Shown here: piece by piece, positions 1-36,098 of the stretch | How the letters are laid out: each line of letters starts with the position of its first letter | How positions within the stretch are numbered: position 1 is the stretch's first letter | Assembly (NCBI RefSeq): GCF_963675165.1 | Contig: NC_087392.1 | Location: 4,609,442-4,673,441 of the forward strand | DNA length: 64,000 nt | Source of the DNA: Halichondria panicea | Lineage: Eukaryota; Porifera; Demospongiae; Suberitida; Halichondriidae | Direction of reading: 5' to 3' | The notes under the pieces: model-generated | The model's database searches: none | Seen by the model: only the letters and a program-made list of their open reading frames with translations | What the model was told of the DNA's origin: nothing | Position numbers and translations under genes: made by a program

Positions 1-2246
1 GTACTGATATATGTCTTTAGTGTTATCTCTATTGGAGTCCACCCCACCCACTGCCAGCATGTAGCCATTGATGGTAATAAGAGTGGAGTTGCTAACTGGC
101 AAAGGGGAAATCTTCTCCCATATAGCTGAGCTTGGCTGGGACTGAGTTAGTTTTCTTAACGAGCATTTGTACACTGAATACTTCTCTTGAGCATCCTCAG
201 TTCGTGGGTGTATGTACACATAGTCTCCACAGTTCGTTGTTGATGGATTGTCGGTTCGCACAGGTAGTGAGCTAACAATAGACCATTGCATATTAGCAGT
301 GTTTAATACTTCGACTGTATTAAAATTCTTATAATCACGCCATCCCCCAGTCACTACAAGTGTGTTTTTAGCGTACACAGCTCCAGGACTCCACCGTCTG
401 GTTGGCATAGGAGGGAAGTGTTCGGCCCATTTGTTGTTAATGTAGCTGTAGAGTTTGTTACTATAGACTTGTGTGTCTGACCCTCCCCCCACAGTTGTGA
501 GCATGTCATCAACACTGACAATAATGAAGTAGCTGTTAGGGCAAGGTGGTAACTTGTGCCATTGATTGTTGCTGAACTCAAAAACAGTGTTACTTCCGTA
601 AGGTCTAAAGTATGCCTTGTCTCCAATCACGCCTGATGATGATCCATACCCAATATCAACAGGTGCATCAGGTAGTGACTCGATTGTAACAGGTTTCATT
701 GGTGTAGGTTGCTCATCTTGCAGTGCGACTTGGTGCATTCGAGTCAATAGATCGTGAGATTCCTCGTTCTTGCTTGCCAAAGCTTGTCTCAGTTCAGTGA
801 CTTCTCTGTCTCGTTGATCGATGGCTTGTTGGAGGGCAGCAGTGTTCTCCTCACTTGATTGCAACTCTTGGTTGAGTCTCCTCAGCTGTCTCTCTCTGGC
901 TCCAGCTTCCTTTTGAAGTGTTGCTTTGTCTTGTTGGAGGGCAGCAGTGTTCTTCTCACTTGATTGCAACTCTTGGTTGAGTCTCCTCAGCTGTCTCTCT
1001 CTGGCTCCAGCTTCCTTTTGAAGTGTTGCTTTGTCTTGCTGGAGGGTTTGGTTTTCTTGTGTTGCTTGGCCTAGTCTCGTAGTGAGTTGACCATTTTCAA
1101 TGTCCTTTGTTTGTAACTGTTCATTGTTTTGTGTTATTGTCTCTCGATTGGCTTGTAGCTGTGTGTCTTTTTCTGTTATAAGCTGTTGATTTTCTTGCAG
1201 TTGTTGTTCGCTCATTTGTATTTGCTCATTTTTTTCTGTTATAATCTGTTGATTTGCTTGTAGTTGTTCATATTTTTCTCTATGAGCATCTGGTGCAGGT
1301 CTTCTTGTTGGGAGCTTTCCTGGTACCGTGGTGTCCTCTTGAGAGCATCCAGTGTTTGGCAGAGCTGTTGGGAAGATGGTCGTTCAACATCTCTGTCTTT
1401 GAGGCAGTTACGAGCAATCGGCAGTAGAGGGTGGGTGGGCTCAATCAGGTTTATGTGAGCTTGTCTTCTCTCTATCTCTGGCACTGGAACGTTGGCTCGA
1501 ATTGCTTGGTTCGGAAATCGTAAATCAAACAGTTCTCTTATTTGAAATCGATCTGTTGGCTTTGGAAATTGTCGAGTTGTGGTCTGAACTAGAAGCACAC
1601 CGAATGAGAAGTTGTCTAGTTTCTCTGTGTACACTGGTGGTTCGTTTAGTGCCTCGGGAGACATGAAGGCTGGTGTTCCCGGGCATGTGGTCATTGTGGC
1701 TTGTCGGGTGACGTTTATGTCCCTGAATTTGGACATTCCGAAATCGGTGACTTTGGCTCGAGTGCCTGCAATGAGTAGGACATTGTTGCTAGAAAGGTCA
1801 CGATGGATGATCCCATTGGAGTGGAGAAAGGCAAGTGCTTGAGCTATGTCATAGGAGAGGTCGATTTGGATATGGTAGGGAATATCTCCGAGTGATGACT
1901 CCAGGAAGTGTGTCAGACTCTCGTCCATGAGCTCCATGAGAAGAACTGGTGCATTTGTGTCGGTATCACGATAGGTCCCTAAGTACTGTACAATATTGGG
2001 ATGGTTGATGCGTTTCAGAAATGCACACTCTTTTTCGAATCTTCTAAATGGATGTCTATGTTCTTTACCAGGATCTGGAACAATCATTTGGAAGAGCACT
2101 GGGTAGAGTAGCTTGGCAGCACAGAGTAGCTGGTCACACTTGGCTTTACACACTGCCCCGTAGGAGCCAGTACCAAGGGTATCATTCTTGAAGAGTTGAA
2201 CATTTCTGAATATGTACTCTTGTTCACGGTCTTGTCTCTCAGCCAT
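1..2246 (-). pseudogene. Kinase-coiled coil-Kelch protein, copy 1 (frameshifted, cut by window edge)
   Basis: The start codon is at 2244-2246. The first 335 codons encode a complete protein kinase domain with a glycine loop (GTGSYGAV), an AAK lysine, HRDLSSNN catalytic loop, DFG and SPE (APE-type) motifs. At about 1270-1283 the sequence has two extra bases compared with copy 4 (ATTTTTCTC against CTTTCTC), which shifts the frame at the start of the coiled coil. After the shift the old frame runs open to base 1 through a coiled coil and most of a Kelch domain, with no other lesion seen. The last Kelch blade lies beyond the window. The coiled coil carries a 34-residue internal duplication also seen in copy 4. 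The gene has no introns. A kinase-only protein ending shortly after the shift could still be made. Substrate and pathway are unknown; kinases of this build are TKL-like by the look of the catalytic loop. Confidence 0.8.
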
Positions 2247-2349
2247 AGCTAGTGACTTGTTAGCAAACTAATTTTCTAAATGATGAATGGTTTTTACCAT
2301 AATTATTTGCAAATGAGTTTGTATTTCTCATGAATAGTGAGTATTGACA

Positions 2350-2730
2350 TGACAATATAGCTTTGTAACATACAAACTGTCATTGTTAAACACATGACTC
2401 CTATTGTTTTAAATTATAGTACACCTGTTCATTGTAGGTTGGTGGTGTCAATAGGTTAGTGCAATGGCTTAGTTTTCATTAACACATGACTAGCTCTTAT
2501 TATGTATTGTGTATCTGCATTGTAGGTATTTGTGCCCCCATACTGAGCACCCCCTTGACGGACTCTTGTTCACAGTCTTGTCTTTTGGCCATATAGCTGC
2601 TAGTGACTTGTTCAACTAATTTTAAAAGTGAATGGTTTTTACCCTATTATAACTGTAAACAATATAAGGAGTGATAAGAGTCATGTGCTAACAATGACAG
2701 GTTTGTATGTTACAAAGCTATATTGTTGCC
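2350..2730. repeat. Inverted repeat upstream of kinase copy 1
   Basis: About 58 bases at 2350-2408 reappear in reverse complement at about 2655-2730, sharing the core ATAGCTTTGTAACATACAAA. A direct repeat ACACCTGTTCATTGTAGGT (near 2422 and 2769) lies in the same stretch. The 5' flank of this copy is therefore rearranged and differs from the flanks of copies 2 and 4. Confidence 0.6.
2561..2645 (-). pseudogene. Duplicated 5' end of a kinase-Kelch gene
   Basis: This stretch repeats the start-codon region and 5' leader of kinase copy 1 (2215-2300) with substitutions. On the minus strand it would begin Met-Ala-Lys-Arg-Gln and ends after about a dozen codons. The rest of the gene is absent. It is a remnant of a further copy or a local duplication. 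Confidence 0.6.
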
Positions 2731-2832
2731 AATAATTATGTCTGAAAATACGAACTCATCTGCACACCTAACACCTGTTCATTGTAGGTCTTTGTATCCC
2801 ATGACATACTGAGAACCCCCTCTCCACTACAG

Positions 2833-2995
2833 GTGCATGGTGAGCTCAACAAGAGGATGGATGTGATGGTAGACCTTTGCAAGGCCACCAACCATCCCCT
2901 ACTCCTGAGACACCACCACTACACTGACCACACCCTACACTGCATAGTGAGGGCCATCCTAAAGGAGCCCAGTCACAGTCACGTGGGAGGATATA
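2833..2995 (+). pseudogene. SMARCAD1-like helicase exon (between the two RecA lobes), copy in unit 1
   Basis: The stretch follows a good acceptor (CCACTACAG). It translates to a segment containing KATNHPLLLRHHHYTD, which matches the conserved RKxANHPLLxRxxYT block of SMARCAD1/Fun30 SNF2 helicases. A paralogous exon lies at 28128-28339. This copy diverges after the LKEPSH motif and lacks the downstream acidic part. It stands alone, with no preceding or following exon in order, so it is an exon remnant to the right of kinase copy 1. Confidence 0.65.
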
Positions 2996-3537
2996 AATGT
3001 AATGTTGAGCTGCACAACCTCTGCACACTATATATATATAAGGTGTGTGGGTGTGTGGGTGTGTATTATGCACAATTTTTCATATTTCACCACGTTTCGT
3101 CTGACTGACTAAGTAAGTTAGTAAGTAAGTAACATTCTTGAAAAGCATTTCCTCCTTCTTTTCTTACCTACGCAATTCCGCCATCTTTAAATGACTGCCA
3201 TAGCAACGCACATCCATAGCAACGCACATGGCAACTTATGAGATGGGCGTGGCTTTGACATCGATAACACAAAACCTCCTCCTTCCTTCAACTCAGCTCT
3301 CCATTCTCTCATGCTATTTATGCTAGACTTATGCTCTGACTGGATCTACCGTAGGCCTCCATGCTTTTGCACTTGGGAGTATAAACATGACTGCCATTTT
3401 ACCACAGAATAAAATAATAATGTTTATTTCAGTCCTGTCTTCTCTTCTTGAACTTCTCTTGTTTCTTGCTTGATATTCCTCTTAGGTATTTCACTTTCAT
3501 TATTGAGGAATATACTTCTGTCCAACGACCACTTATA

Positions 3538-3948
3538 TACCGTATAGCGCAGTATTACAGTAGTACATTAATGATAAGATAAATGTGACGTTTATTAATT
3601 TGTCATCGTCCTGTAATCTTGTTGATGATAATACCGTATAGCGCGAAATTTTCGAGGGGCTTAATTTTCGCTGATTTCGTGGGTTAGAATTCTACACGAA
3701 AATTAAGTCTACAAAAATTATTCTTTAATTAGAATTACCTGCTATAATGCAAATATTTAAAGGCGTGGCTTCCGGTAAGCAGTCATTCCGCGAACATTGT
3801 GCAACGAAATGGCTTTTAGAGGCTAATCCACGAAATATAAGTGCCTCGAAAATTTCGCGCTATACGGTATTATCATCAACAAGATTACAGGACGATGACA
3901 AATTAATAAACGTCACATTTATCTTATCATTAATGTACTACTGTAATG
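3538..3948. repeat. Foldback element with a nested MITE in its centre
   Basis: The outer arms (about 3550-3631 and 3870-3948) are long reverse complements that share GACGTTTATTAATTTGTCAT. Between them sits a roughly 240-bp element bounded by TACCGTATAGCGCGAAA and its inverse. The open reading frame that crosses the right part is incidental. No transposase is present. Confidence 0.65.
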
Positions 3949-3959
3949 AAAAAAGAAAG

Positions 3960-5110
3960 GGAATTAAAACTAAAAACATTTGCAATGTGAACGTTGCTAG
4001 GATTGCCAGAAAAAAAAGCGCGAAAAAGCAAAGAAACAAGAAATTCGGCGAGTGCATAACTCTAATCCGTTACAACGTCAATGTACAGTCGAGTGGCCTA
4101 CTGTTGATAAGGAATTTTAAAATCAAAATACAGGTTGGGTAATAGCCTCGATTTCGTTTACATAGAAGTATTGTGCAAAGATGACTGAGTTCTTACGCCC
4201 TTTATTTTATCAAGCCAAGTCTCTATTTAACGACACCCTACACAGTAAGGCTACAGATGTTATAGAAAGGCATGGTGTGTTCCTGTGGGTCCCCTGATGA
4301 GGCTGTGGTAATATGGACCAGGCAAGCCTTCTGCTACTAAATCTTGCCTTTATGTTCGACAGGAAGTCATTGCTGAAGATAAAGAAGCTAATGATTACTC
4401 CTGAAAGCTTTTAACTCGACACTCAGGAAGTTTAATATTCACTCAAGATCTACTGATGTATTAAAGAGTCAACCACTCTTCCTAGCTGGCGCTCTACTAT
4501 CTGGGAGGCTTTCTTGAACTATCTCTTTGATAAACAGAGCTAGAAGAAGCAACACTGCTGCAGCGTAATTATTCTACTTTGATTAGTGTCTCTGAAAGCT
4601 GCCATATTGTCATACGTATTGTAACTTCGTCCAGTTTTTTTACAATTTGTATGATGAAATTGTTGTCAATTATTTCGCGCATGCGCATATAAAGTATAAC
4701 AGGCCGCCTTTCTCTTCGCGGCCTGGAATCGAGGCTAGTTGGGTAAATGCACAGTCATATCTTTATCTGCTGGTCGTGAATAACTTTAAGTACTTTCACC
4801 CACACATCCAACACTTAATTGCGTGTTTGCTCAACACTGTAAGGGTCATAAACACATTACTATATAGCCTCCAAAAAATGCACATATCATTAACATCACT
4901 ATGATTATTACTTGCAATGTGAAAGGATTGGCCAGGAAAAGTACCAAAACAAAAATAACTTATTGAAACAGTACAATTCATGTAAATGACGTTGTACCGG
5001 ATTGGAGTTATGCACTAGCTGAATTTCTTGCTTCTTCGCTTTTTCACGCTTTTTTTCCTGGCAATCCTAGCAACGTTCACATTGCAAATGTTTTTTAGTT
5101 TTGATTATGT
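3960..5110. repeat. Outer inverted repeat split by a MULE-like insertion
   Basis: Bases about 3965-4100 and about 4975-5105 are inverted copies; both contain a GCAATGTGAACGTTGCTAGG-type block followed by an A-rich (or T-rich) run. A third, more decayed copy of the same block lies near 4910-4980. The 595-bp element at 4143-4737 sits inside this structure, so the outer repeat is older. Confidence 0.55.
4143..4737. mobile_element. Non-autonomous DNA element with TAGCCTCGAT ends and 9-bp target duplication
   Basis: The left end reads TAGCCTCGATT and the right end AATCGAGGCTA. The flanks carry a perfect 9-base direct repeat, GTTGGGTAA, at 4134-4142 and 4738-4746. A 9-bp duplication is typical of Mutator-like (MULE) elements, so that superfamily is inferred. 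No coding capacity was found inside. Related ends occur at 31746, 33183, 36969 and 37581. Confidence 0.65.
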
Positions 5111-5129
5111 ATACATAATTATAGGATAT

Positions 5130-5290
5130 AATTATAATAGTTAGACACTGTTTAGGAATATTTAGAAGCCCAAAGGGCTGGTTGTAGTATCCCGAACGCA
5201 GTGAGGGTTCTACTAGCCCTGAGGACTTCTAAATCATGTAGCAACTTCCTAAACAGTGCATGTCTAAGCATTTTAGATCATATAGCAACC
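5130..5290. repeat. Imperfect hairpin repeat
   Basis: The sequence GACACTGTTTAGGAA on the left returns inverted as TTCCTAAACAGTGCATGTC on the right, with CTTCTAAA-type and AGCCC blocks also mirrored. It belongs with the other short palindromic repeats in this window. Confidence 0.5.
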
Positions 5291-5444
5291 ATGAGTATTT
5301 AGCCAATCTAATCTTTGCTACATGATTTTCTAAGTAAGTACATATAAATAAGTACATGATTTTCTAAGTTGGAAATAGAACACTTCCTTTAGCCAATCAA
5401 ATTGTAGTATTTATGGCAAACATGATCTAATACAATATATATAG

Positions 5445-5765
5445 AACAAATTAGGCACTGTACAAAAGTAAATACTTCACATTTTCTGCCTGTATGATGT
5501 CCATGCACCCACCACCATGCAGTTGAGAGAGTAGTTAGCAGTCTGCACAGGTAGTGAGCTAACAATAGATCATTGCCTGTTAGCAGTGTTTAATATCTCG
5601 ACTGTATTTAAACGTGTTGCATTACAAAATCTCCCAGCCACTACTAGTGTGTTGTTAGCATACACAGCTCCAGGTTAGTGTGTTGTTAGCATACACAGCT
5701 CCAGGTCCCCACCATGGGAGGGGAAGTGTTTGACCCATTTGTTGTTAATGTAGCTGTAGAGTAAA
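5445..5765 (-). pseudogene. Decayed Kelch-end fragment of a kinase-Kelch gene
   Basis: On the minus strand this matches the last part of copies 2-4, including the terminal coding and 3' flank (AACAAATTAGGCACT...). Large parts are deleted, and a 27-base piece (GTGTGTTGTTAGCATACACA onward) is tandemly duplicated near 5650-5703. No kinase domain accompanies it. It is the stub of a further copy of the family. Confidence 0.65.
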
Positions 5766-5984
5766 ATCTCTTTGTGAGATCAGAAGTGGGCCAGGGATTC
5801 TTGTGATTACGATGGTTTATACAGAGGACCTTTGGATACAAGTCAGAGTAAATGGACTGAGCAGGACCTTGCACCATGTGTACACCTAGTTTATTATTTG
5901 TGTAGAACACAGCCTCGATTAAACTGCAGAGAAATACGGATTGTACTTCGAGGGTGCTTCTGTTTTCAATCCCCCTTTTTTCTC

Positions 5985-6385
5985 TATCTATATATGACAC
6001 AACCAAGCCAAAGAAGCTCGCCTCGACACTGCTGGAACACAGCTCAAGCCCTCAGCAAAAAGAGCCGCTTCTAGATGCTTAGTGCGAAGCAGAATTAAAG
6101 GATTTATATAAGCCATGCATCATGCACGAGGACTAGGAACACAAAATCTTCCACAAAATGAACCTAGGCCTTGGACCGTGCATGGTTGTAAAAAAGAAAT
6201 TCCAGCAGTGCTGAACATTAACAGTCTCCTAGCTGCATGTTATTCATTTTAATATGTCAGTCTAATGCCAGAGGGGCGTTTGTAGTTAGTGCATTTGACT
6301 TTGCGGTTGGTGCATTATGCTGCACATTGCACTTAGCAACAACGTAGCAGCGGGATATAAAAGACGCATAATTTAGTGTGTTTTT
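5985..6385 (+). repeat. Interspersed repeat, copy A (SINE/MITE-like)
   Basis: This stretch matches 52880-53310 in the same orientation over about 400 bases with scattered changes. Shared landmarks are CAAAAAGAGCC, GCAGTGCTGAACATT and AGAGGGGCGTTT. No open frame, transposase or clear tRNA head was seen, so the class is undecided. Confidence 0.6.
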
Positions 6386-6443
6386 TAGCTCCCAAAAATG
6401 TGATTGAGCCACATCCCCACACACACACACACACATTCCACAG

Positions 6444-6639
6444 AGAGTGGACGAGTCGAGTGCCTACTACCAGGAGCAAGCGAGACAGGCCAAGCAGATC
6501 ATGACACCCTACACACTGCAGAGGCTCAAATTACAAGTGCTGAGTCAGTTCCCGGCCAAGGTATCCAGTACGAAGACTCAGTGGACGTTGTACAGGGGCG
6601 TGGTGGAGAGGTCACTCATAGTCAATCAGGGCCGACATG
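6444..6639 (+). pseudogene. SMARCAD1-like helicase exon (end of RecA lobe 1)
   Basis: It follows a CA-rich tract and acceptor CCACAG, and ends at donor ATG|GTGAGT. The product contains YYQEQARQAKQIM and LQRLKLQVLSQ, matching the IAHAKQIIKPF-RRVKEEVL region of SMARCAD1. Compared with the copy at 24995 it lacks 18 bases in frame. It lies alone to the left of kinase copy 2. Confidence 0.65.
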
Positions 6640-9052: not shown

Positions 9053-11248
9053 TTAGGCACTATGTACAAAAGTAAATGCTTCACATTTTCTGTATGTACG
9101 ATCTCCTCCCACCACCATCAGTTTGTTCCCAGGAAGGGCAGCAGTGTGGCATAATGAGCGAGGTGTTGACATTTGACTAATGACAGTCCATGATGTCATT
9201 ACGTACTGATATATGTCCTTGGTGTTATCTCTATTGGAGTCCAGCCCACCCACTGCCAGCAGGTGACCATTGATGGTAACAAGGGTGGAATGGCTAACTG
9301 GCAAAGGGACAATCTTCTCCCATATAGCTGAGATTGGCTGGAACTGAGTTAGTTGTCTTAATGAGCATTTGTACACTGAATATTTCTCCTGAGCATCACT
9401 AGTTTGTGGGTGTATGTACACATCGTCTCTACAGATCGTTGATGATAGGTCATCGGTTCGCACAGGTAGTGAGGCAACAATAGACCAATGTTTGTTAGCG
9501 GTGTTTAATATCTCAACTATATTTAAAGTTTTTGAGTCACCATATCCCCCGGTCACTACAAGCGTGTTGTTAGCATACACAGCTCCAGGTCCCCACCGTC
9601 TAGTTGGCATGGGAGGGAAATGTTTGACCCATTTGTTGTTAATGTAGCTGCAGAGTTTGTTACTATAGCATTGTCTGCCTGACCGTCCCCCCACAGTTGT
9701 GAGCACGCCATCAACACTGACAATAGTGAAGCGGTCATTAGGGCAAGGTGGTAACTCGTGCCACTGGTTGTTGCTGAACTCAAAAATAGTTATACTTGTG
9801 TATGGACTGAAGTATGCCTTGTCTCCAATCACGGCTGATGATGATGATCCATACCTCATAACAACAGGTACATCGGGTAGTGACTCTATTGTAACAGGTT
9901 TCATTGGTGTAGCTTGAGCATCTTGTAGTGCAACTTGGTGTATTCGAGTCGATAGATCGTGAATTTTGTCGTTCTTGCTTGCCAACGTTTGTCTCAGTTG
10001 AGTCACTTTTCTGTCTCGTTGATCGATGGCTTGTTGGAGGGCAGCAGTGTTCACCTCACTCGATTGCAACTCTTGGTTGAGTTTCCTCAGCTGTCTCTCC
10101 CTGGCTTCAGCCTCCTGTTGAAGTGTTTGGTTTTCTTGTGTTGCTTGGTCTAGTCTTGTAGTGAGTTGACCATTTTCAATGTGTAACTGTTCATTGTTTT
10201 GTGTAATTGTCTCTCGATTGGCTTGTAGCTGTGTGTCTTTTTCTGTGATAAGCTGTTGATTTGCTTGTAGTTGTTCATCTTTCTCTCTGAGCATCTGGTG
10301 CAGGTCTTGTTGGGAGCTTTCCTGATACCGTGGTGTCATCTTGAGAGCATCCAGTGTTTGGCAAAGCTGTTGGGAAGATGGTCGTTCAACATCTCTGTTT
10401 TTGAGGCAGTGACGAGCAATCGGCAGTAGAGGGTGGGTGGGCTCAATCAGGCTCATGTGGGCTTCTCGTCTCTCCAGTTCTGGAATTGCTATTTTAGCTT
10501 CAATTGTGCGACCTGGATTTCGTGGATCAGGAATTTGAATACTCTCAAATCGATCTGTTGGATTTGGAAACAGTTGAGTTGTGGTCTGAACTAGAAGCAC
10601 ACCAAATGAGAAGTTGTCTAGTTTCTCTGTGTACACTGGTGGTTCGTTTAGTGCCTCGGGAGACATGAAGGCTGGTGTTCCCGGGCATGTGGTCATTGTG
10701 GCTAGTCGGGTAACGTTTATGTCCCTGAATTTGGACATTCCAAAATCAGTGACTTTGGCCCGAGTGCCTGCAATCAGTAGGACATTGTTGCTGGAGAGGT
10801 CGCGATGGATGATCCCATTGGAGTGGAGAAAGGCAAGTGCTTGAGCTATGTCATAGGAGAGGTTGACTTGAATGTGGTAGGGAATGTCTCCAGGTGATGA
10901 CTCCAGGAAGTGTGTCAGACTCTCGTCCATGAGCTCCATGAGAAGAACTGGTGCATTTGTGTCGGGATCGCGATAGGTCCCCAAGTACTGTACAATGTTG
11001 GGATGGTTGATACGACTCAGAAATGCACACTCTGTTTCGAATCTTCTAAACGGGTGTCTATGTTCTTTGCCAAGATCTGGAACAGTCATTTGGAAGAGCA
11101 CTGGATAGAGTAGCTTGGCAGCACAGAGTAGCTGGTCACACTTGGCTTTACACACTGCCCCGTAAGAGCCAGTACCCAGGGTATCATTCTTGAAGAGTTG
11201 AATATTTCGAAATATGTATTCTTGTTCAGGATCTTGTCTATCAGCCAT
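9053..11248 (-). CDS. Kinase-coiled coil-Kelch protein, copy 2 (intact)
   Basis: A single open frame of 731 residues with no introns. Residues about 18-300 are a protein kinase domain: glycine loop GTGSYGAV (25-32), lysine 45 in CAAK, HRDLSSNN (148-155) with catalytic Asp150 and Asn155, DFG (168-170), and SPE (196-198) in place of APE. Residues about 315-435 are a Gln/Glu-rich coiled coil. Residues about 455-731 form a Kelch beta-propeller, with repeated Gly-Gly turns such as TVGG, VTGGYG, AVGGLD and VVGGD. All residues needed for catalysis are present, so it should be an active Ser/Thr or dual-specificity kinase, probably cytosolic, as no signal peptide or membrane segment is seen. Kelch domains usually bind partners. 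Its target is unknown. It lies antisense between two helicase exons (6444 and 11737). Its 5' flank to about 12,060 matches that of copy 4. Confidence 0.9.
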   Translation of the reverse strand: MADRQDPEQEYIFRNIQLFKNDTLGTGSYGAVCKAKCDQLLCAAKLLYPVLFQMTVPDLGKEHRHPFRRFETECAFLSRINHPNIVQYLGTYRDPDTNAPVLLMELMDESLTHFLESSPGDIPYHIQVNLSYDIAQALAFLHSNGIIHRDLSSNNVLLIAGTRAKVTDFGMSKFRDINVTRLATMTTCPGTPAFMSPEALNEPPVYTEKLDNFSFGVLLVQTTTQLFPNPTDRFESIQIPDPRNPGRTIEAKIAIPELERREAHMSLIEPTHPLLPIARHCLKNRDVERPSSQQLCQTLDALKMTPRYQESSQQDLHQMLREKDEQLQANQQLITEKDTQLQANRETITQNNEQLHIENGQLTTRLDQATQENQTLQQEAEARERQLRKLNQELQSSEVNTAALQQAIDQRDRKVTQLRQTLASKNDKIHDLSTRIHQVALQDAQATPMKPVTIESLPDVPVVMRYGSSSSAVIGDKAYFSPYTSITIFEFSNNQWHELPPCPNDRFTIVSVDGVLTTVGGRSGRQCYSNKLCSYINNKWVKHFPPMPTRRWGPGAVYANNTLVVTGGYGDSKTLNIVEILNTANKHWSIVASLPVRTDDLSSTICRDDVYIHPQTSDAQEKYSVYKCSLRQLTQFQPISAIWEKIVPLPVSHSTLVTINGHLLAVGGLDSNRDNTKDIYQYVMTSWTVISQMSTPRSLCHTAALPGNKLMVVGGDRTYRKCEAFTFVHSA

Positions 11249-20989: not shown

Positions 20990-22062
20990 TATTAGTCCAA
21001 CCAAACTGACATCGATGGGTATATGGTGGACCTGAACTACGAGGCCTGGCTGGCAGCTGATGTAAGGTAGGGATGTGTGTGATGGTGTATGGTGGACCTG
21101 AACTACGAGGCCTGGCTAGCAGTTGATATAAGGTAGGGATGTGTGATGGTATATGGTGGACCTGAACTATGAGGCCAGGCTGGCAACTGATATAAAAGAT
21201 GTGTGTGATGGTGTATGGTGGACCTGAACTACGAGGCCTGGCTGGCAGCTGATGTAAGGTAGGGATGTGTGTGATGGTGTATGGTGGACCTGAACTACGA
21301 GGCCTGGCTGGCAGCTGATGTAAGGTAGGGATGTGTGATGGTGTATGGTGGACCTGAACTACGAGGCCTGGCTGGCAGCTGATGTAAGGTAGGGATGTGT
21401 GATGGTGTATGGTGGACCTGAACTACGAGGCCTGGCTGGCAGCTGATGTAAGGTAGGGATGTGTGATGGTGTATGGTGGACCTGAACTACGAGGCCTGGC
21501 TGGCAGCTGATGTAAGGTAGGGATGTGTGATGGTGTATGGTGGACCTGAACTACGAGGCCTGGCTGGCAGCTAATCTAAGGTAGGGATGTGTGTGATGGT
21601 ATATGGTGGACCTGAACTACGAGGCCTGACTGGCAGCTGATGTAAGGTAGGGATGTGTGTGATGGTGTATGGTGGACCTGAACTACGAGGCCTGGCTGGC
21701 AGCTGATGTAAGGTAGGGATGTGTGATGGTGTATGGTGGACCTGAACTACGAGGCCTGGCTGGCAGCTGATGTAAGGTAGGGATGTGTGTGATGGTGTAT
21801 GGTGGACCTGAACTACGAGGCCTGACTGGCAGCTGATGTAAGGTAGGGATGTGTGTGATGGTATATGGTGGACCTGAACTACGAGGCCTGGCTGGCAGCT
21901 GATGTAAGGTAGGGATGTGTGTGATGGTGTATGGTGGACCTGAACTACGAGGCCTGGCTGGCAGCTGATGTAAGGTAGGGATGTGTGATGGTGTATGGTG
22001 GACCTGAACTACGAGGCCTGGCTGGCAGCTGATGTAAGGTAGGGATGTGTGTGATGGTGTAT
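20990..22062 (+). repeat. Satellite array, 16 copies of a 64/66-bp unit
   Basis: The unit contains GGTGGACCTGAACTACGAGG, CCTGGCTGGCAGCTGATGTA and GGTAGGGATG. Sixteen copies can be counted, most differing only by one extra TG (64 or 66 bases). Early copies are more divergent and the central ones are nearly identical, as expected for recent unequal crossing over or slippage. One frame of each unit reads MVDLNYEAWLAAD and then hits GTAAGG, a good splice donor, so the array may be an amplified exon edge. The sequence at 20941-21016, before the array, also looks like a short exon (acceptor TATTAG, donor GG|GTATAT), but its gene is not recognised. Confidence 0.9.
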
Positions 22063-22155
22063 GAATGCACAGGTCTACTTGGAATCCAACACAGAGAAAA
22101 TAGTGTACAGTTCACATGCAGTTATACACGTATACCTTATTGTTATACTTTTATA

Positions 22156-25682: not shown

Positions 25683-27881
25683 CTATTTAAAAGTAACTAT
25701 TTCACATTTTTTTAGTGCACCAACTCCTCCCATCACCATCAGTTTGTTCCCAGGGAGGGGAGCAGTGGAGCATGCATATCGAAGTGTTGAAATTTGACTA
25801 ATAACAGTCCATGATGTCTTGTTGTACTGATATATGTCCTTGGTGTTATCTATATTGGAGTCCAGCCCACCCACTGCTAGCAGGTGGCCATTGATAGTGA
25901 CAAGAGTGGAATAGTAAACTGGCAAATTGGCAATCTTCTCCCATATAGCTGAGCTTGGCTGGGACTGAGTTAGTTGTCTTAATGAGCATTTGTACACTGA
26001 ATACTTCTCTTGAGCATCCTCAGCTCGTGGGTGTATGTACACAAAGTCTCCACAGGTCGTTGTTGATGGGCGACTGGTTGGCACAGGTAATGAGCTAACA
26101 ATAGACCATCGCATGTTAGCAGTGTTTAATATTTCGACCGTACTTAAACTTTTTGGATCACCCCATCCTCCAGTGACTACAAGTGTGTTGTTAGCGTACA
26201 CAGCTCCAGGCCACCACCGTCTGGTTGGCATGGAAGGGAAGCGTTCGTCGATGCATTTGTTGTTAATGTAGCTGTAGAGGTTGTTACTATGGCTTCCCCC
26301 CACAGTTGTGAGCATGTCATCAACACTGACAACAGTGAAGTGCCTGTTAGGGCAAGGTGGTAACTTGTGCCACTGATTGTTGCTGAACTCATAAACAGTT
26401 TTACTTCCGTATGGATTAAAGTATACCTTGTCTCCAATCACGGCTGATGATCCAGACCCCATATCAACAAGTGCATCAGGTAGTGACCCTATTGTAACAG
26501 GTTTCATTGGTGTAGCTTGCTCATCTTGCAGTGCAACTTGGTGCATTCGAGTTGATAGATCGTAAATTTCCTCGTTCTTGCCTACCAGCGTTTGTCTCAG
26601 TTGAGTGACTTCTCTGTGTCGTTGATCTATGGCTTGTTTGAGGGCAACAGTGTACTCCTCACTTGATTGCAACTCTTCGTTGAGTCTTCTCAGCTGTCTC
26701 TCCCTGGCTTCACCCTCATGTTGAAGGGTTGCTTTATCTTGTTGAAGGGTTTGGATTTCAGTGTCTTTTGTATCTAACTGTTCTTTGTGTTGTGTAATTA
26801 TCTCTTGATTTTCTGCTATAATCTGGTCATTTGTTTGTAGCTGTGTGTCTTTTTCTGTAATTTGCTTATCTTTTTCTGTGATAATGCGTTGGTTTGCTTG
26901 TAGTTGTTCATTTTTCTCTCTGAGCATCTGGTGCAAGTCTTGTTGGGAGCTTTCCTGGTACCGTGGTGTCCTCTTGAGAGCATCTAGTGTTTGGCAGAGC
27001 TGTTGGGAAGATGGTCGTTCAACATCTCTGTCTTTGAGGCAGTGGCGAGCAATTGGCAGTAGAGAGTGGGTGGGCTCAATCAGGCTTATGTGGGCTTGAC
27101 GTCTTTCCTGTTCTGGGATTGCTATTTTAGCCTCAATTGTGCGACTTGAGTTTCGTGGATGGGGAACTTGAATACTTTCAAATCGATCTGTTGGCTTTGG
27201 AAACTGTCGAGTTGTAGTCTGAACTAGAAGAACACCAAATGAGAAGTTGTCTAGTTTCTCTGTGTACACTGGTGGTTCGTTTAGTGCCTCCGGAGACATG
27301 AAGGCTGGTGTTCCCGGGCATGTGGTCATTGTGGCTAGTCGGCTGACGTTTATTTCCCTGAATTTGGACATTCCGAAATCGGTGACTTTGGCTCGAGTGC
27401 CTGCAATGAGTAGGACGTTGTTACTGGAGAGGTCGCGATGGATGATCCCATTGGAGTGGAGAAAGGCAAGTGCTTGAGCTATGTCATAGGAGAGGTTGAC
27501 TTGGATGTGGTAGGGAATGTCTCCAGGTGATGACTCCAGGAAGTGTGTCAGACTCTCATCCATGAGCTCCATGAGAAGAACTGGTGCATTTGTGTCGGGA
27601 TCACGATAGGTCCCCAAGTACTGCACAATGTTAGGGTGGTTGATACGACTCAGAAATGCACACTCTGTTTCGAATCTTCTAAACGGGTGTCTATGTTCTT
27701 TACCAGAATCTGGAACAATCATTTGGAAGAGCACTGGATAGAGTAGCTTGGCAGCACAGAGTAGCTGGTCACACTTGGCTTTACACACTGCCCCGTAGGA
27801 GCCAGTTCCAAGGGTATCATTCTTGAAGAGTTGAACATTTCTGAATATGTACTCTTGTTCACGGTCTTGTCTCTCAGCCAT
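25683..27881 (-). CDS. Kinase-coiled coil-Kelch protein, copy 3 (intact)
   Basis: A single open frame of 732 residues, intronless. The kinase domain has the GTGSYGAV loop, CAAK lysine, HRDLSSNN, DFG and SPE motifs at the same positions as in copy 2, and its C-lobe cassette is of the copy-2 type (FESIQVPHPRN). The coiled coil differs from copy 2: it has extra KDKQITEKD and KDTEIQTLQQDK heptads. The Kelch domain (about 455-732) has TVGG, VTGGWGD, AVGGLD and VMGG turns but differs at many surface positions from copy 2, e.g. a shorter loop after TTVGG. The stop falls in TTTAAATAG. It lies antisense between helicase exons 24995-25208 and 28128-28339. It is likely functional; partner unknown. Confidence 0.9.
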   Translation of the reverse strand: MAERQDREQEYIFRNVQLFKNDTLGTGSYGAVCKAKCDQLLCAAKLLYPVLFQMIVPDSGKEHRHPFRRFETECAFLSRINHPNIVQYLGTYRDPDTNAPVLLMELMDESLTHFLESSPGDIPYHIQVNLSYDIAQALAFLHSNGIIHRDLSSNNVLLIAGTRAKVTDFGMSKFREINVSRLATMTTCPGTPAFMSPEALNEPPVYTEKLDNFSFGVLLVQTTTRQFPKPTDRFESIQVPHPRNSSRTIEAKIAIPEQERRQAHISLIEPTHSLLPIARHCLKDRDVERPSSQQLCQTLDALKRTPRYQESSQQDLHQMLREKNEQLQANQRIITEKDKQITEKDTQLQTNDQIIAENQEIITQHKEQLDTKDTEIQTLQQDKATLQHEGEARERQLRRLNEELQSSEEYTVALKQAIDQRHREVTQLRQTLVGKNEEIYDLSTRMHQVALQDEQATPMKPVTIGSLPDALVDMGSGSSAVIGDKVYFNPYGSKTVYEFSNNQWHKLPPCPNRHFTVVSVDDMLTTVGGSHSNNLYSYINNKCIDERFPSMPTRRWWPGAVYANNTLVVTGGWGDPKSLSTVEILNTANMRWSIVSSLPVPTSRPSTTTCGDFVYIHPRAEDAQEKYSVYKCSLRQLTQSQPSSAIWEKIANLPVYYSTLVTINGHLLAVGGLDSNIDNTKDIYQYNKTSWTVISQISTLRYACSTAPLPGNKLMVMGGVGALKKCEIVTFK

Positions 27882-28127
27882 AGTTATTGGTGTACACTTT
27901 AAGCTAGCTAGAAAAGAGGTGGATGGTTTTTGTGAGCTTTTTGGGTGTCAGTGTTAGGCATTTGCAGTTTATTCATGGTGATTTGCATTGTTTTGTACCA
28001 TGGTTACAGAAGTAATGAATATAGCTTTTAATTATGTATTGTTCACCTTTTCATTGAATTGTGTTGTGTATCTGTTCTGCATTGTACATCTTTGTACCCC
28101 ATACTGGGCACCCCCTCTCCACTACAG

Positions 28128-28339: not shown

Positions 28340-28739
28340 GTGAAGTGTGAGGGTGTGAGGGTGTGTGGGTGTTTAGTAATGTATAGGATAAAAGGATCGG
28401 AAATGATTGGGTTTGTGGATTGCAGAGTTTATGTCTTTAGTAGCTCAATATATATGTACACACGTACACACGATGCATTATTGTTGGTCATTATTAGGAG
28501 GTGTGATCACATGCTACGTAATGCACATGTACACACATATGTAGTCACTATCAGAATACGCCCTACCCGGGAGCTTGGTGGGAATGTTAGGAAAATTTGA
28601 AAAAGAATGTAACAACATTTTCGTTGCCTAATTTCATTTTTCCCCCCACTATAGGGTGATCGTGTGTTGGTGTTCAAACGTATCATTTAGCGACAGTTTC
28701 GTACAAGTGAAAGGTGTCTCAGTAAAGACACTATAGAGG

Positions 28740-30532: not shown

Positions 30533-30771
30533 GTACTCACTAGGGGAGAGTAAACAAAGCTCTTCCTACACTAGATAAGCTTTGTAGGGGATTGTTAGTA
30601 CTTTGTAGCGTCATTTTTCGACCTTGAACTTTAATCTTATAGTCCGTGGTATGGCCAAATTTTATCTCTCTTTAATGAAAATTGGTGACACTATTTAGAA
30701 GGTCTCTTTCGATAGGAGGTTGCCCTTGAGTCATTGGAGTTAACACAACTTACTCGGATTGCCTCACACGA

Positions 30772-31593
30772 GATCAACTTTCACGAGATCAACTCCCACG
30801 AAATCAAATCAACTTTGCATGAGGTTAACTCTCAGTAGATCAACTCTCACAGAATCAACTTTTCAAATGATAAATTTCATAGGATCAACTCAGAACCAGA
30901 ATTGAAAATCGTTAAATTACAAAAAAGAGATTGAAGTCCAGTAAGATGCTTGATGCGCTGATAAATACGCATTGCATGAGAGTCATGCCTCCTGTGTTGA
31001 CCCCTTTTCCTTCTGCGTCTCTGTGGCTAGCTCCAGACGTGTTGGTCACTGCCTCCTCTCTCTGCATGTACATTCAATCCATTTAGGTGAGGGTTGCTTT
31101 TTTCATCCTAGAACCTACTCTCATCTCTGGCCCTCTTCCTCATCCTGCAATGGAAACTTGAGTGGTATAATCTCAGCTGGATTGGGTGGGTGATCATGCT
31201 CGTTCTTTACAACCACACTCAAACGTGGGCAACCAGCTCAGCCTTATGGTTTTTGCACCTCCAGAATTGAAATCATTTTTGTCTCTTATGCTTAAACTTT
31301 CCTCCTCGGTTTGTCTTGATGAATTAAACCATTGCGAATAAATGCATTGTGCTAGATGTGACTTATATTTTGCTCAATACCTTTCCCATAATTAAATTGT
31401 AGTAATTGACCTTTAGAAATAGGATTTTAAAATTGAAGAGTTGATTTTCGTTCATTTCAGGAGTTGAGTTGATTCTATGAAAAGTTGATTCTATGAGAGT
31501 TGATCTATACTGAGAGTTGACCTCATGCAAAGTTGATCTAGTAAGAATTGATCTCGTGGGAGTTGATCTCGTAAAAGTTGATTTCGTGTGCAC
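30772..31593. mobile_element. Foldback-type element with tandem-repeat arms
   Basis: Both ends are inverted copies of each other (about 30772-30925 and 31435-31593). Each arm is itself a run of degenerate 15-17-base repeats of the type CACGAGATCAACT, about eight to ten per arm. The central about 500 bases carry no recognised gene. This is the layout of Foldback (FB) elements, whose long arms consist of short direct repeats. No transposase is present. Confidence 0.7.
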
Positions 31594-31745
31594 ACACCCT
31601 TACTTGGATAGTAGATATAATGTCCTGGAAACAACAAAAATGTCATTGAGCCAAAATTTGCTGTTTTCCCCTGTACAGTTCACAGTTCTTACTACACTGC
31701 CCCCCACTAAACCACAAACACTCAATCCATGGTCAAGTATGAACT

Positions 31746-31793
31746 TAGCCTCGACTCCACGCCGATTAAATAATCGGCGTGGATTCGAGGCTA
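31746..31793. mobile_element. 48-bp palindromic insertion with target duplication
   Basis: Two 23-base arms (beginning TAGCCTCGACTCCACGCCG) with one mismatch surround a 2-base centre. The flanks carry AGTATGAACT on both sides (31736-31745 and 31795-31804). The arm matches the ends of the 595-bp element at 4143. It looks like a minimal element made of two fused ends. Confidence 0.75.
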
Positions 31794-32054
31794 TAGTATG
31801 AACTATAATAATGTACTGTGTTATGGACTGGAAATATCTTAGTTGTTCTAGTGCTGTTCTAGAGTATTCTTATACACTTATAGCATTCTGTGTATTGTTC
31901 TTGTTTGTTCTAGTTTTGCTGTTTTGAGTTCAGTTTTGTTTGCAAGGAGTGCATGTTCTTTCATATGATCAAGACAGTTGTTTAATTAAGTCAATTCTCC
32001 TATAGTCAAGAATACTACGTTACACCCCCCCCTACACACACACACATTCCACAG

Positions 32055-32240
32055 AGAGTGGACGAGTCGAGTGCCTACTACCAGGAGCAAGTGAGACAGG
32101 CCAAGCAGATCATGACACCCTTCACACTGCAGAGGCTCAAGTCACAAGTGCTGAGTCAGCTCCCAGCCAAGGTGTCCAGTACGGAGCATTGTACAGGGGC
32201 GTGGTGGAGAGGTCAATCAGGGTTAATCAGGGCCGACATG
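32055..32240 (+). pseudogene. SMARCAD1-like helicase exon (end of lobe 1), copy to the left of kinase 4
   Basis: It is the third copy of the exon seen at 6444 and 24995, with the same acceptor and donor. Between two TTGT repeats, 28 bases are missing relative to 24995 (the segment encoding QLTDTQWTL), a frame-breaking deletion that looks like microhomology repair. The product is otherwise YYQEQVRQAKQIMTPF and LQRLKSQVLSQLP. Confidence 0.7.
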
Positions 32241-32374
32241 GTGAGTGCCTGCAGGGGAATGTTGTGTGTTGGGGAGATTGTGGCTAGTTTGTGTTGTGGG
32301 TTTAGTCATAAGAGAGGCAGTGGGTGTGGTTTGATATGCAGAGATTGCTTCTGTTCACAGTCTCTCAAAAATAT

Positions 32375-33530
32375 ATTGGGGTGTCTTGAATCGGTGGAAT
32401 GGGCTACTCCTGGAATACTGGAATGACCTTTGACCTTGTTGCGCATGCGCAATACATTCATCACCTATTATAATAGTTGAACTGCACTATAAAATCATTG
32501 GTGGCTGAAAAACTCTCTCTGACTAGTACTGTCACAAACCATACAATAATTTATTAGCAACATCAACAACATAAAGTACAAGATTATTATTATAAAGCAA
32601 ATTGAATATGAAATATAATATAATTACAACTGTCCAAGCATTTTGTTTCTTCAGAATCTTCCAGACGTTTGTCTTTTCAGAAACTCAATCAGAGACTTTT
32701 GTGAACAGTGGTAGGCAGAAAAGGTGCATTCCATAGCCGACCACAAGTAGTTGCAAACTAGTTGCCCTATAAAAGGAGTGATGTGTACACGGAAAGGAAT
32801 GCAACAACAAATCAGTTGTTACACAGCTCACTCGTGCGCACATTGGATATATTGGCTCAGTAGTGCCTTTGCCCTCGAGGCCTGCGGCCCTCGGGCCTAA
32901 GTCACTACTGAGCCAATATATCCCATGTGGCACTCGTGCATGTGTCACAACTATAACATAATGAACATTTATAAACTCATGACACCATCGATCACTCTTT
33001 GCATTACAATAATAGTTGCCAAAACAGGATATGGGCAGAGGATGGTATTTGTGGCCTATAAGTCTCATCGATGCACTCTTATATATATGTTTCAACTTAC
33101 ATTCATACTCGACAGGTTCATCATTGATATCAGAATAGCTCCTATAGCCTCTTTCACAGGCCTTCCATGCATTGCAGAGGAGAGGAAGTGCGGCCTGGGA
33201 TAGAGGCTAGATACATCCATGAAAACTTACAGAAACTCTTCACCATAATTATATCCCTAAATTGTGTACATCAAAATGTTAAAAATGAATTCACCTGAAC
33301 TTATAACAATTATCTCCAGCAACAATTTTCACTGGTGAGGAACTGCAACGGTGAGCAATTGTGTCTAAGATGCTATCTAAGCCAATAGCACACTCAGCAC
33401 TATACCTCTTGACTATTCAAAACTTAAGATTTTTTAGACCTCCATGTATTAGCACATGGTCAAAGGTCATTCCAGTATTCCAGTATTCCAAGTCAAGTAG
33501 TCCATTCCACCGATTCAAGACACCTCAAAC
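32375..33530. mobile_element. 1.15-kb element with about 65-bp inverted ends, inserted beside kinase 4
   Basis: GGTGTCTTGAATCGGTGGAA at about 32380 is mirrored by CACCGATTCAAGACACC at about 33510, and the arms extend about 65 bases (CTGGAATACTGGAATGACCT and inverse). The paralogous sites at 25330-25360 and 6735-6765 lack it and read straight through (CTCAAA...TTGTCCTCAATATTG). It contains hairpin repeat copy B (32816-32952). No transposase is seen. Confidence 0.6.
32708..32952. repeat. Hairpin repeat with GC-rich loop, copy B
   Basis: It is nearly identical to 7738-7990, including the perfect stem and the loop CCTCGAGGCCTGCGGCCCTC, with only a few base changes and one short deletion in the left flank (the ACGTTTTTCATGCATCT segment). 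Confidence 0.7.
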
Positions 33531-33710
33531 ATTGTGTTGTCCTCAATATTGTAGCAGACAGTTATCAATTGACCTGCTATATTATCAAACTATATAATTA
33601 TTTACTGAGTGTATTGCTCGTTTAGTTGAAGTAATTGACATACTGTAATAACTTTCAACATAATGTAAAGTATTTTACAGCATATTACAATAACACGAAA
33701 GAATTAGACA

Positions 33711-36098
33711 CTACTTAAAAGTAAACATTTCACATTTTGTCGGTGCACCAAATCCTCCCACTACCATTAGTTTGTTCCCAGGGAGGGCAGCAGTGACGCA
33801 TGCTAATCGAGGTGTTGACATTTGACTAACGACAGTCCATGATGCCATATTGTACTGATATAATTATGTCCTTGGTGTTATCTCTATTGGAGTCCACCCC
33901 ACCCACTGCCAGCAGGTAGCCATTGATTGTAATAAGAGTGGAGTTGCTAACTGGCAAAGGGGCAATCTTCTGCCATATAGCTGAGCTTGGCTGGGACTGA
34001 GTTAGTTTTCTTAACGAGCATTTGTGCACTGAATACTTCTCTTAAGCATCCTCAGTTCGTGGGTATATGTACACATAGTCTCCACAGTTCGTTGTTGATG
34101 GGTTGTCGGTTCGCACAGGTATTGAGCTAACAATAGACCATTGCATATTAGCAGTGTTTAATACTTCGACTGTATTAACATTCTTATAATCACGCCATCC
34201 CCCAGTCACTACAAGTGTGTTTTTAGCGTACACAGCTCCAGGACTCCACCGTCTGGTTAGCATAGGAGGAAAGTATTCGGCCCATTTGTTGTTAATGTAG
34301 CTGTAGAGTTTGTTACTATAGACTTGTGTGTCTGACCCTCCCCCCACAGTTGTGAGCATGCATCAACACTGACAATAGTGAAGTACACGTTAGGGCAAGG
34401 TGGTAACTTGTGCCACTGATTGTTGCTGAACTCAAAAACAGTATTACTTCCGTAAGGACTAAAGTATCCCTTGTCTCCAATCACGCCTGATGATGATCCA
34501 TACCCAATATCAACAGGTGCATCAGGTAGTGACTCTATTATAACAGATTTCATTGGTGTAGCTTGCTCATCTTGCAGTGCGACTTGATGCATTCGAGTCA
34601 ATAGATCGTGAGATTCCTCGTTCTTGCTTGCCAAAGCTTGTCTCAGTTCAGTGACTTCTCTGTCTCGTTGATCTATGGCTTGTTGGAGGGCAGCAGTGTT
34701 CTCCTCACTTGATTGCAACTCTTGGTTGAGTCTCCTCAGCTGTCTCTCTCTGGCTCCAGCTTCCTTTTGAAGTGTTGCTTTGTCTTGTTGGAGGGCAGCA
34801 GTGTTCTTCTCACTTGATTGCAACTCTTGGTTGAGTCTCCTCAGCTGTGTCTCTCTGGCTCCAGCTTCCTTTTGAAGTGTTGCTTTGTCTTGCTGGAGGG
34901 TTTGGGTTTCTTGTGTTGCTTGGCCTAGTCTCGTAGTGAGTTGACCATTTTCAATGTCCTTTGTTTGTAACTGTTCATTGTTTTGTATTATTGTCTCTCG
35001 ATTTGTTTGTAGCTGTGTGTCTTTTTCTGTTATAAGCTGTTGATTTTCTTGCAGTTGTTGTTCGCTCATTTGTATTTGCTCATCTTTTTCGGTTATAATC
35101 TGTTGATTTGCTTGTAGTTGTTCATCTTTCTCTATGAGCATCTGGTGCAGGTCTTCTTGTTGGGAGCTTTCCTGGTACCGTGGTGTCCTCTTGAGAGCAT
35201 CCAGTGTTTGGCAGAGCTGTTGGGAAGATGGTCGTTCAACATCTCTGTCTTTGAGGCAGTTACGAGCAATCGGCAGTAGAGGGTGGGTGGGCTCAATCAG
35301 GCTCATGTGAGCTTGTCTTCTCTCTATCTCAGGCACTGGAACGTTGGCTCGAATTGCTTGGTTCGGAAATCGTAAATCAAACAGTTCTCTTATTTGAAAT
35401 CGATCTGTTGGCTTTGGAAATTGTCGAGTTGTGGTCTGAACTAGAAGCACACCGAATGAGAAGTTGTCTAGTTTCTCTGTGTACACTGGTGGTTCATTTA
35501 GTGCCTCGGGAGACATGAAGGCTGGTGTTCCCGGGCATGTGGTCATTGTGGCTAGTCGGGTGACGTTTATGTCCCTGAATTTGGACATTCCGAAATCAGT
35601 GACTTTGGCTCGAGTGCCTGCAATGAGTAGGACATTGTTGCTAGAGAGGTCGCGATGGATGATCCCATTGGAGTGGAGAAAGGCAAGTGCTTGAGCTATG
35701 TCATAGGAGAGGTTGACTTGGATGTGGTAGGGAATGTCTCCAGGTGATGACTCCAGGAAGTGTGTCAAACTCTCGTCCATGAGCTCCATGAGAAGAACTG
35801 GTGCATTTGTATCGGGATCGCGATAGGTCCCCAAGTACTGTACAATGTTAGGGTGGTTGATACGACTCAGAAATGCACACTCTGTTTCAAATCTTCTAAA
35901 GGGGTGTCTATGTTCTTTGCCAGGATCTGGAACAATCATTTGGAAGAGCACTGGATAGAGCAGCTTGGCAGCACAGAGTAGCTGGTCACACTTGGCTTTA
36001 CACACTGCCCCGTAGGAGCCAGTACCAAGGGTATCATTCTTGAAGAGTTCAACATTTCTGAATATGTACTCTTGTTCACGGTCTTGTCTCTCAGCCAT
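33711..36098 (-). pseudogene. Kinase-coiled coil-Kelch protein, copy 4 (broken in the Kelch domain)
   Basis: The frame is open from the start at 36098 for about 580 codons, covering an intact kinase domain and the coiled coil. It is very close to copy 1, sharing the C-lobe cassette FQIRELFDLRFPNQ and the 34-residue coiled-coil duplication. Three lesions hit the Kelch part: a 1-base deletion near 34360 (GAGCATGCATC against GAGCATGTCATC), a CAA-to-TAA stop at 34042-34044, and a 4-base insertion near 33862. The first shift appends about 35 foreign residues and stops near 34257. A protein with kinase and coiled coil but no propeller could still be made. The 5' flank to 36,920 matches that of copy 2. 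Confidence 0.85.

Follow-up and report, generated by a model that had tools for sequence, protein, structure and literature searches.

Sponge kinase genes with diversified Kelch pockets look like an intracellular recognition repertoire

Known kinase and Kelch systems

ALPK1 and PKR each combine ligand sensing and kinase output within one cytosolic protein; both are single genes serving a fixed kind of ligand. The kinase-coiled coil-Kelch architecture analyzed here is common to three large gene families of the sponge Halichondria panicea, designated A, B and C, which, unlike ALPK1 and PKR, comprise over 200 loci and have diversified pockets. Like the BTB-Kelch substrate receptors KEAP1 and KLHL, these families have a six-bladed Kelch propeller with a central pocket, and their selected sites lie at the same motif positions. 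In contrast to those receptors, the propeller is fused to a kinase, the pocket is hypervariable among many paralogues, and no Pfam match to BTB or BACK was found in the kinase genes scanned. Kinase and Kelch also occur in one protein in Entamoeba (PMC2939887) and in one Leishmania kinase (PMC1266030); unlike the sponge families, these comprise few genes, with neither expansion nor pocket selection reported in the portions of the two papers drawn on here.

The IRAK/Pelle/Tube kinases resemble family B in carrying a Death-like domain ahead of the kinase, and IRAK4 is among the best PDB matches of the family A kinase (CTR1, IRAK4, BIK1, TNNI3K and TAK1, plus one EGFR entry among them). The sponge families differ in their Kelch tail and huge copy number, and A and B lack the gatekeeper tyrosine described for the IRAK family (PMC3498205): read by eye from the motif, the gatekeeper place holds Met in A (LLMELM) and Val in B (LVVELM). 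PDB matches of the B kinase were headed by one EGFR entry, followed by TAO, LIMK and B-Raf, and IRAK was absent among the 60 matches listed. On the strength of the gatekeeper residue and these B matches, we rejected IRAK membership; the B matches do not imply a Toll-like pathway. Animal NLR expansions, with 135 NLR genes given for Amphimedon in one account (PMC6208332), are likewise large germline repertoires of proteins thought to be cytosolic. Here, however, the putative output is a kinase rather than a NACHT ATPase and the putative sensor a Kelch pocket rather than LRR; NACHT plus LRR had no Pfam match in the kinase genes scanned.

Gene copies in the window and across the genome

The window is a stretch of 64,000 nucleotides and carries the following features, all on the minus strand, with copy 3 as the reference for residue numbers.

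1..2246, minus: family A copy 1, frameshifted; kinase at 1242-2246, coiled coil and Kelch at 1-1383 in a different frame
5447..5761, minus: family A Kelch fragment, about 46% identical (tblastn, E<=1e-3)
9056..11248, minus: family A copy 2, an intact kinase-coiled coil-Kelch gene in one exon, 731 aa
11249..12072, minus: upstream flank of copy 2, about 91% identical to its duplicate upstream of copy 4
25686..27881, minus: family A copy 3, intact, single-exon, 732 aa
26991..27821, minus: kinase domain of copy 3 (Pfam Pkinase; catalytic Lys45, HRD148-150, DFG168-170)
26523..26936, minus: predicted long helix or Q,E-rich coiled coil of copy 3 (residues 316-453, structure model)
25686..26501, minus: Kelch propeller of copy 3 (residues 461-732; Pfam, fold match to KLHL12 and KEAP1)
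25707..26459, minus: span of the 30 KEAP1-pocket-equivalent codons of copy 3 (six blades; Kelch coordinates 3, 4, 20, 22 and 25)
33714..36098, minus: family A copy 4; frame open at 34260-36098 through kinase, coiled coil and the first part of Kelch
36099..36932, minus: flank upstream of copy 4, homologous to the copy 2 flank

All four long minus-strand copies named in a preliminary description were recovered from open frames and tblastn, and alignments between copies over at least 1 kb show 84-96% identity, which excludes chance resemblance. Copies 2 and 3 proved to be fully open, as that description had it, with a frame uninterrupted from a conserved Met. The open frame of copy 1 is broken into two frames at about 1240-1383, and the copy overruns the left edge of the window, reaching about C16:4609304. 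The preliminary description ended at 36098, which is where copy 4 has its start codon; a frameshift inside the Kelch part of this copy leaves the remainder in other frames (33865-34359 and 33714-33863). Two fragments had also been claimed: one is the Kelch piece at 5447-5761, and the second was not recovered at E<=1e-3. One NACHT gene sits within the array, and retroelement frames are present elsewhere in the window.

The claimed order of kinase, coiled coil and Kelch was confirmed. Pfam Pkinase was matched in four of four copies (E 1.6e-36 to 3e-38; for copy 1 the scan covered the kinase frame only), and the four do not differ in G-loop, catalytic Lys, HRD or DFG, in agreement with the earlier reading of HRD, DFG and glycine loop. 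The middle segment, residues 316-453, is predicted to form a single long helix. Copies 2 and 3 gave Pfam Kelch matches; copy 4, whose scanned open frame stops early in Kelch, gave none, and the Kelch sequence of copies 1 and 4 was located by tblastn. Fold comparison of the Kelch part with PDB returned KLHL12 (E 4.9e-14) and KEAP1 (E 4.5e-13). The structure model was unreliable and unusable over the kinase, so pocket positions were assigned by motif register rather than by coordinates.

Whole-genome searches found many more loci, ruling out a set of only four genes, and the preliminary description covered a small part of a larger family set. Family A comprises at least 49 loci in the same genome, 36 of them on the window's contig, with copies spread over ten contigs; family B, with its N-terminal Death-like domain, at least 115; and family C, with one intron ahead of Kelch, at least 58. 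As expected of a TKL-type protein kinase, A and B have a complete kinase domain in which the catalytic Lys, HRD and DFG are present; the A reading frames begin about 20 residues ahead of it, and 13 of 14 B kinases retain the catalytic motifs, L035 lacking only a match to the Lys motif CA[VI]K. In family C, DLG replaces DFG, and the frame scanned in Pfam matched only the kinase, apart from a weak coiled-coil match. A profile of B first exons (n=13) matched only FADD Death-domain chains in PDB (11/11, best E 3.6e-4); as a single sequence this domain falls under the Pfam cut-off, with 5 of 13 members matching at E<=1.

The upstream flanks of copies 2 and 4 are homologous over 853 columns (91%), and shorter upstream blocks are common to many copies on C16. 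These common flanks indicate duplication at the DNA level, as expected from the tandem or segmental duplication proposed earlier, and led us to reject retroposition copy by copy. Intact copies adjoin broken ones, which supports the proposed birth-and-death decay. Two B and two C loci have a predicted phase-0 intron where the coiled coil meets Kelch, the position in L062 not being confident; A has none there. The suggested retroposed founder may fit the absence of this border intron from A; however, A-like genes at a greater distance, on C2, C9 and C10, likewise consist of a single exon, which dates the intronless state to before the window array.

Positive selection at the Kelch pocket

Family A loci were chosen for open frames, excluding beforehand the more divergent L015-L024, the disrupted L028 and copy 1. 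We examined 29 frames with a minimum length of 600 aa and kept 27 that reach 690 aa (copy 4 falls short of this, and the L070 frame lacks a Met ahead of the glycine loop); 24 were used after removal of L068, with no start Met, and of L003 and L006, near-identical to others. For the B Kelch domain, 29 loci were reduced to 28 (L082, a 319-aa frame, was not included) and then to 26 by removing the near-identical L036 and L079. For the C Kelch domain, 8 of 14 loci had a usable frame (L094, L096, L098, L101 and L102 had none, and L099 is split), and one near-identical sequence was dropped to leave 7.

All three families show a concentration of dN>dS codons at the KEAP1-pocket-equivalent positions: 11 of 30 pocket sites against 12 of 246 others in A (p 2.2e-6), 21/30 against 16/269 in B (p 1.2e-15) and 12/30 against 3/269 in C (p 3.9e-11, n=7 sequences). 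The test skips columns gapped in the reference, and 23 of the 25 selected A sites enter it; KEAP1 Ser602 was not placeable in the motif register. Blades 1 and 4 of family A have no literal GG and took their register from the preceding Tyr, fixed after the list of selected sites had been seen; with literal-GG blades only, the pocket holds 7/20 against 12/246 (p 1.3e-4). Selected Kelch sites outside the five pocket coordinates number 12 of 23 in A and 16 of 37 in B, many of them in adjacent loop positions.

Selection is focused on the KEAP1-equivalent ligand site, and the signalling module is more constrained. Median dN/dS in family A is 0.65 for Kelch, 0.41 for the coiled coil and 0.25 for the kinase; in family B, selected sites number 37/299 in Kelch, 3/260 in the kinase (on a tree leaving out the B-like kinases L047, L049, L050 and L051) and 4/95 in the Death exon. 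Because the fastest change in the sensor domain falls at the positions with which such domains hold their targets, these look like recognition proteins. Positive selection at the pocket backs the recognition-type family proposed at the outset and is silent about what the pocket binds.

Proposed function and alternatives

We lean towards reading the three families as cytosolic sensor kinases: variable ligands would be bound by a diversified Kelch pocket and the kinase clustered by the coiled coil, with non-self recognition the probable purpose. In the proposed mechanism, the C-terminal six-bladed propeller would take a ligand into its central pocket, where diversifying selection has made the residues differ between genes. 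Binding would gather chains via the coiled coil and, in B, also the Death-like domain; the kinase domains thus brought together would phosphorylate one another and pass on a conserved signal. A hypervariable pocket joined to its own kinase would allow one chain both to read a variable ligand and to send the signal. Gene number and pocket variety, in genes presumed to be expressed and to encode active kinases, would then constitute a repertoire whose most likely targets are microbes or other non-self. A cytosolic location is suggested by window copies 2 and 3, in which neither signal peptide nor membrane segment was seen.

It is unlikely that the Kelch pocket instead docks host proteins as kinase substrates, its diversity rewiring substrates with no role in defence. 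KEAP1 and KLHL Kelch pockets do read host peptides, according to PDB titles and the account in PMC6891428, but recurrent dN>dS at the same sites across dozens of close genes would be unusual for stable host partners, and intact copies adjoin broken ones. Self/non-self or reproductive recognition, such as allorecognition or mating, would also suit a diversified multigene family under strong positive selection. We consider this decidedly improbable beside microbial sensing: the lack of signal peptide and membrane segment in the intact copies 2 and 3 makes cell-surface contact unlikely for A, and the B Death-like domain suits intracellular alarm signalling.

Relaxed constraint, gene conversion or misalignment might mimic positive selection in loops; loops after GG differ in length in some columns, and conversion would be likely in tandem arrays. 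Simulations with no positive selection, however, yielded 0-2 sites in A and B, against 25 observed in A and 37 in B, and the concentration persists when each third of the domain is given its own tree (A p 3.8e-6, B p 1.6e-15). Tree-free all-pair dN/dS agrees, at 1.27 for the pocket and 0.57 for the rest in A, 3.65 and 0.69 in B, and 1.30 and 0.46 in C. Coordinates 3 and 4, which precede the strand, hold selected sites in every family (6/12 in A, 8/12 in B and 6/12 in C). Together, these four results largely refute an artefact, which we regard as very improbable. The weakest point is the six sister pairs of family A, where pocket dN/dS is 0.97, not above 1, and the rest 0.61; the support in A comes from particular sites and from the all-pair counts. 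Selfish amplification, in which an intronless founder spread useless copies by retroposition, would fit the single-exon A genes on ten contigs and the retroelement frames in the window, but is scarcely credible given the common upstream flanks of DNA-level duplication, the constrained kinase and the like expansion of the intron-bearing families B and C.

How animals without antibodies discriminate microbes or other non-self is an open question, and the known answers are a few receptor types. Whether Kelch-pocket receptor kinases, with more than 200 loci in three separately expanded families of one 131-Mb genome, form a large germline-diversified animal recognition system apart from NLR, Toll-like, SRCR and Ig receptors is in our view evenly balanced. 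The pocket analysis supplies a concrete list of residues for testing, and since KEAP1 has provided a good understanding of the Kelch pocket, ligand searches can begin immediately. On sequence grounds, these related animal kinase genes, which number in the hundreds, look like a large and so far undescribed intracellular recognition set; a kinase repertoire whose binding pocket is its fastest-changing part, in three gene families, would add a type of recognition to those known.

A kinase–coiled-coil–Kelch array and its neighbours

The window (C16:4609442-4673441; C1 to C17 are contigs of the same genome) belongs to a genome of 131.5 Mb in 39 contigs. The preliminary description had claimed four minus-strand kinase–coiled-coil–Kelch copies, two of them fully open, and two fragments. 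All four copies were recovered with one exon each, and two are indeed open from a conserved Met; one fragment was located, and the second was not found at E ≤ 1e-3. The features of the array and its surroundings are as follows.

1-2246, minus strand: copy 1, reading split between frames
5447-5761: Kelch fragment
9056-11248, minus strand: copy 2, open, 731 aa
15724-20550, minus strand: single-exon NACHT frame inside the array, 1609 aa (Pfam NACHT, E 1.9e-24)
21018-22063: minisatellite of ~64-66-bp units, immediately upstream of the NACHT gene
25686-27881, minus strand: copy 3, open, 732 aa
33714-36098, minus strand: copy 4, frameshift within Kelch
40257-41678: reverse transcriptase frame, retroelement remains adjoining the array
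45387-49495, minus strand: Pao-type peptidase and DUF1759 frames, likewise retroelement remains

By eye only, the NACHT frame also has a leucine-rich tail and, at its N-terminus, a Death-like stretch; neither was reported by Pfam.

The conserved Met is the likely start of these single-exon genes (family A), because the sequence 5' of it varies among copies, with in-frame stops in several; an intron in the 5'-UTR is possible. Many copies have in common an upstream block roughly 200-830 bases before the ATG (fetched loci L004, L005, L008, L011, L013 and L027, and window copies 3 and 1), which may be a promoter, 5' exon or repeat. AlphaFold models of the four window copies gave a Kelch pLDDT of ~74 (blocks from residue 481) and a helix at 316-453, the kinase part being unreliable, and Foldseek matches were KLHL12 (E 4.9e-14), designed Kelch propellers, KLHL17 and KEAP1. 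Copies 2 and 3 showed no apparent signal peptide or membrane segment, their highest hydropathy over 19 residues being 1.16 and 1.44.

Three gene families in the genome

A search of the genome with the family A kinase yielded at least 49 loci at ≥65% identity, plus two shorter fragments. At least 36 lie on C16 at 3.75-5.70 Mb and the remainder on C3, C5, C8, C9, C12, C13 and C14, with distant single-exon relatives on C2, C9 and C10. A larger array on C1, first indicated by a Kelch_1 search, defines family B, in which a Death-like exon, kinase exon, coiled-coil exons and a ~315-aa Kelch exon follow one another on one strand in the loci examined. Among the 139 kinase matches listed for this family, 118 at ≥75% represent at least 115 separate loci (at least 81 at C1 15.4-17.4 Mb, at least 22 on C6). 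In family C, kinase and coiled coil share one exon, followed by Kelch on the next; at least 58 kinase loci were found at ≥78%, some of them partial matches, with at least 57 on C3 and one on C16. All these counts are of kinase matches, the Kelch part being checked in a subset of loci, and are lower bounds since the search scored best candidates only. Among 12 downstream stretches fetched for family C, five contained no Kelch frame and one a split Kelch. Related kinases are probably present in other sponges and in cnidarians.

The family B region on C1 spans 15.49-17.36 Mb (about 1.9 Mb); the kinase matches listed there form a head-to-head mirror image, those up to ~16.13 Mb being on the minus strand and those from ~16.50 Mb onward on the plus strand. 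More kinase-frame clusters, ~37-44% identical to family C, occur at C11:4.4-6.5 Mb, C10:5.6-6.2 Mb and C13:4.26-4.31 Mb. Loci L047-L051 (C1, C5, C15, C3) carry B-like kinases with no B-type Kelch match in the fetched stretch, L047 and L048 having Death-like frames downstream by eye. L052 (C11:4363700-4367900) encodes at 431-3526 a 1032-aa family A-like kinase with a long coiled coil; Pfam reported the kinase alone, and the likeness of its C-terminus to SNAP25/29-type SNARE motifs was judged by eye only.

The N-terminal exon of family B is assigned, with moderate confidence from sequence profiles, as a Death domain. A single sequence scored 16.3 bits, below the Pfam Death cut-off of 22.6 bits, and 5 of 13 individual first exons gave a Death match at E ≤ 1. 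All 11 PDB sequences matched by a profile built from the 13 exons were FADD, the best at E 3.6e-4.

Selection at the Kelch pocket

Site selection was estimated using a purpose-written, FUBAR-like codon model with a separate tree per region and a 15x15 grid over the synonymous and the non-synonymous rate; a site was called selected at P(beta>alpha)>0.9. Family A (24 genes) had 7/312 such sites in the kinase, 5/143 in the coiled coil and 25/281 in Kelch; its median pairwise dN/dS rose from 0.25 through 0.41 to 0.65 in the same order, with similar dS for kinase (0.28) and Kelch (0.25). Family B had 37/299 in Kelch (26 genes), 3/260 in the kinase (14 genes) and 4/95 in the Death exon (12 genes), and family C 15/300 in Kelch (7 genes).

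Pocket residues of KEAP1, taken from a passage of PMC6891428, were located on the KEAP1 sequence and correspond to GG-relative Kelch coordinates 3, 4, 20, 22 and 25. Selected sites were concentrated at these positions in family A (11/30 versus 12/246 elsewhere; odds ratio 11, p=2.2e-6), family B (21/30 versus 16/269; odds ratio 37, p=1.2e-15) and family C (12/30 versus 3/269; odds ratio 59, p=3.9e-11). The position directly after GG was selected in all six blades of family B, and strand coordinates 5-19 held no selected site in A or C and one in B. Outside the pocket, seven selected sites of family A fall at coordinates 1, 21, 23 and 26 and five outside the register; in family B, 11 fall at 23, 24, 26 and 27, one at 6 and four outside the register.

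Neutral simulation on the same trees, for A and B only, produced 0 and 1 such sites in B and 1 and 2 in A, and simulation with non-synonymous rates at or below the synonymous rate produced 1 and 1. When a separate tree was used for each of three segments of Kelch in A and B, the pocket enrichment persisted (A 11/30 versus 13/246, B 20/30 versus 13/269), and therefore a single recombination-distorted tree is not the cause. All-pair dN/dS without a codon model was 1.27 in the pocket and 0.57 in the rest for A, 3.65 and 0.69 for B, and 1.30 and 0.46 for C. For sister pairs, the values were 3.12 and 0.70 in B (9 pairs), 8.06 and 0.57 in C (1 pair), and 0.97 and 0.61 in A (6 pairs); the A pocket does not exceed 1, and for family A, to which the window copies belong, this is the chief finding against the claim in its strongest form.

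Origin and proposed mechanism

A midpoint-rooted tree of 35 kinases shows three distinct groups: the A core (support 96), family B (100), and family C together with a lone C17 gene (100). The three expansions thus look separate, and in each of them selection has centred on the same pocket positions. Kelch-bearing A-like genes from C2, C9, C10 and C11 branch outside the A core, where kinases from C7, C9, C11 and C17 with no Kelch match in the fetched stretch mingle with them. A phase-0 GT-AG intron is predicted from genomic sequence at the coiled-coil/Kelch border in two B and two C loci, and is absent from family A and its distant relatives. A retroposed founder of family A, as first suggested, may have existed, but it would be old. 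The proposed segmental duplication held up: copies 2 and 4 have flanks that match over 853 columns at 91%, and upstream blocks are common to many C16 copies, so the copies spread as DNA.

The combination of kinase and Kelch is on record for Entamoeba (PMC2939887) and Leishmania (PMC1266030). Among the open-access titles and abstract openings listed, which include few subscription journals, none concerned an expansion of Kelch kinases or a diversified Kelch pocket in animals. In one of two MAMP-treated sponges (D. avara, according to the text), expression fell strongly for a Kelch-motif gene and rose for kinases (PMC6208332), and in Mycale grandis the expression of Kelch-type propeller and kinase families changed with niche (PMC11000336). 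These passages, neither of which places Kelch and kinase in one protein, back the following mechanism circumstantially. Beyond the selection pattern and architecture, which are observed, we propose from gene anatomy that a ligand would bind in the Kelch pocket, that chains would cluster via the coiled coil and, in B, via the Death-like domain, and that the conserved kinase domains would then trans-phosphorylate, leading to downstream alarm signalling.
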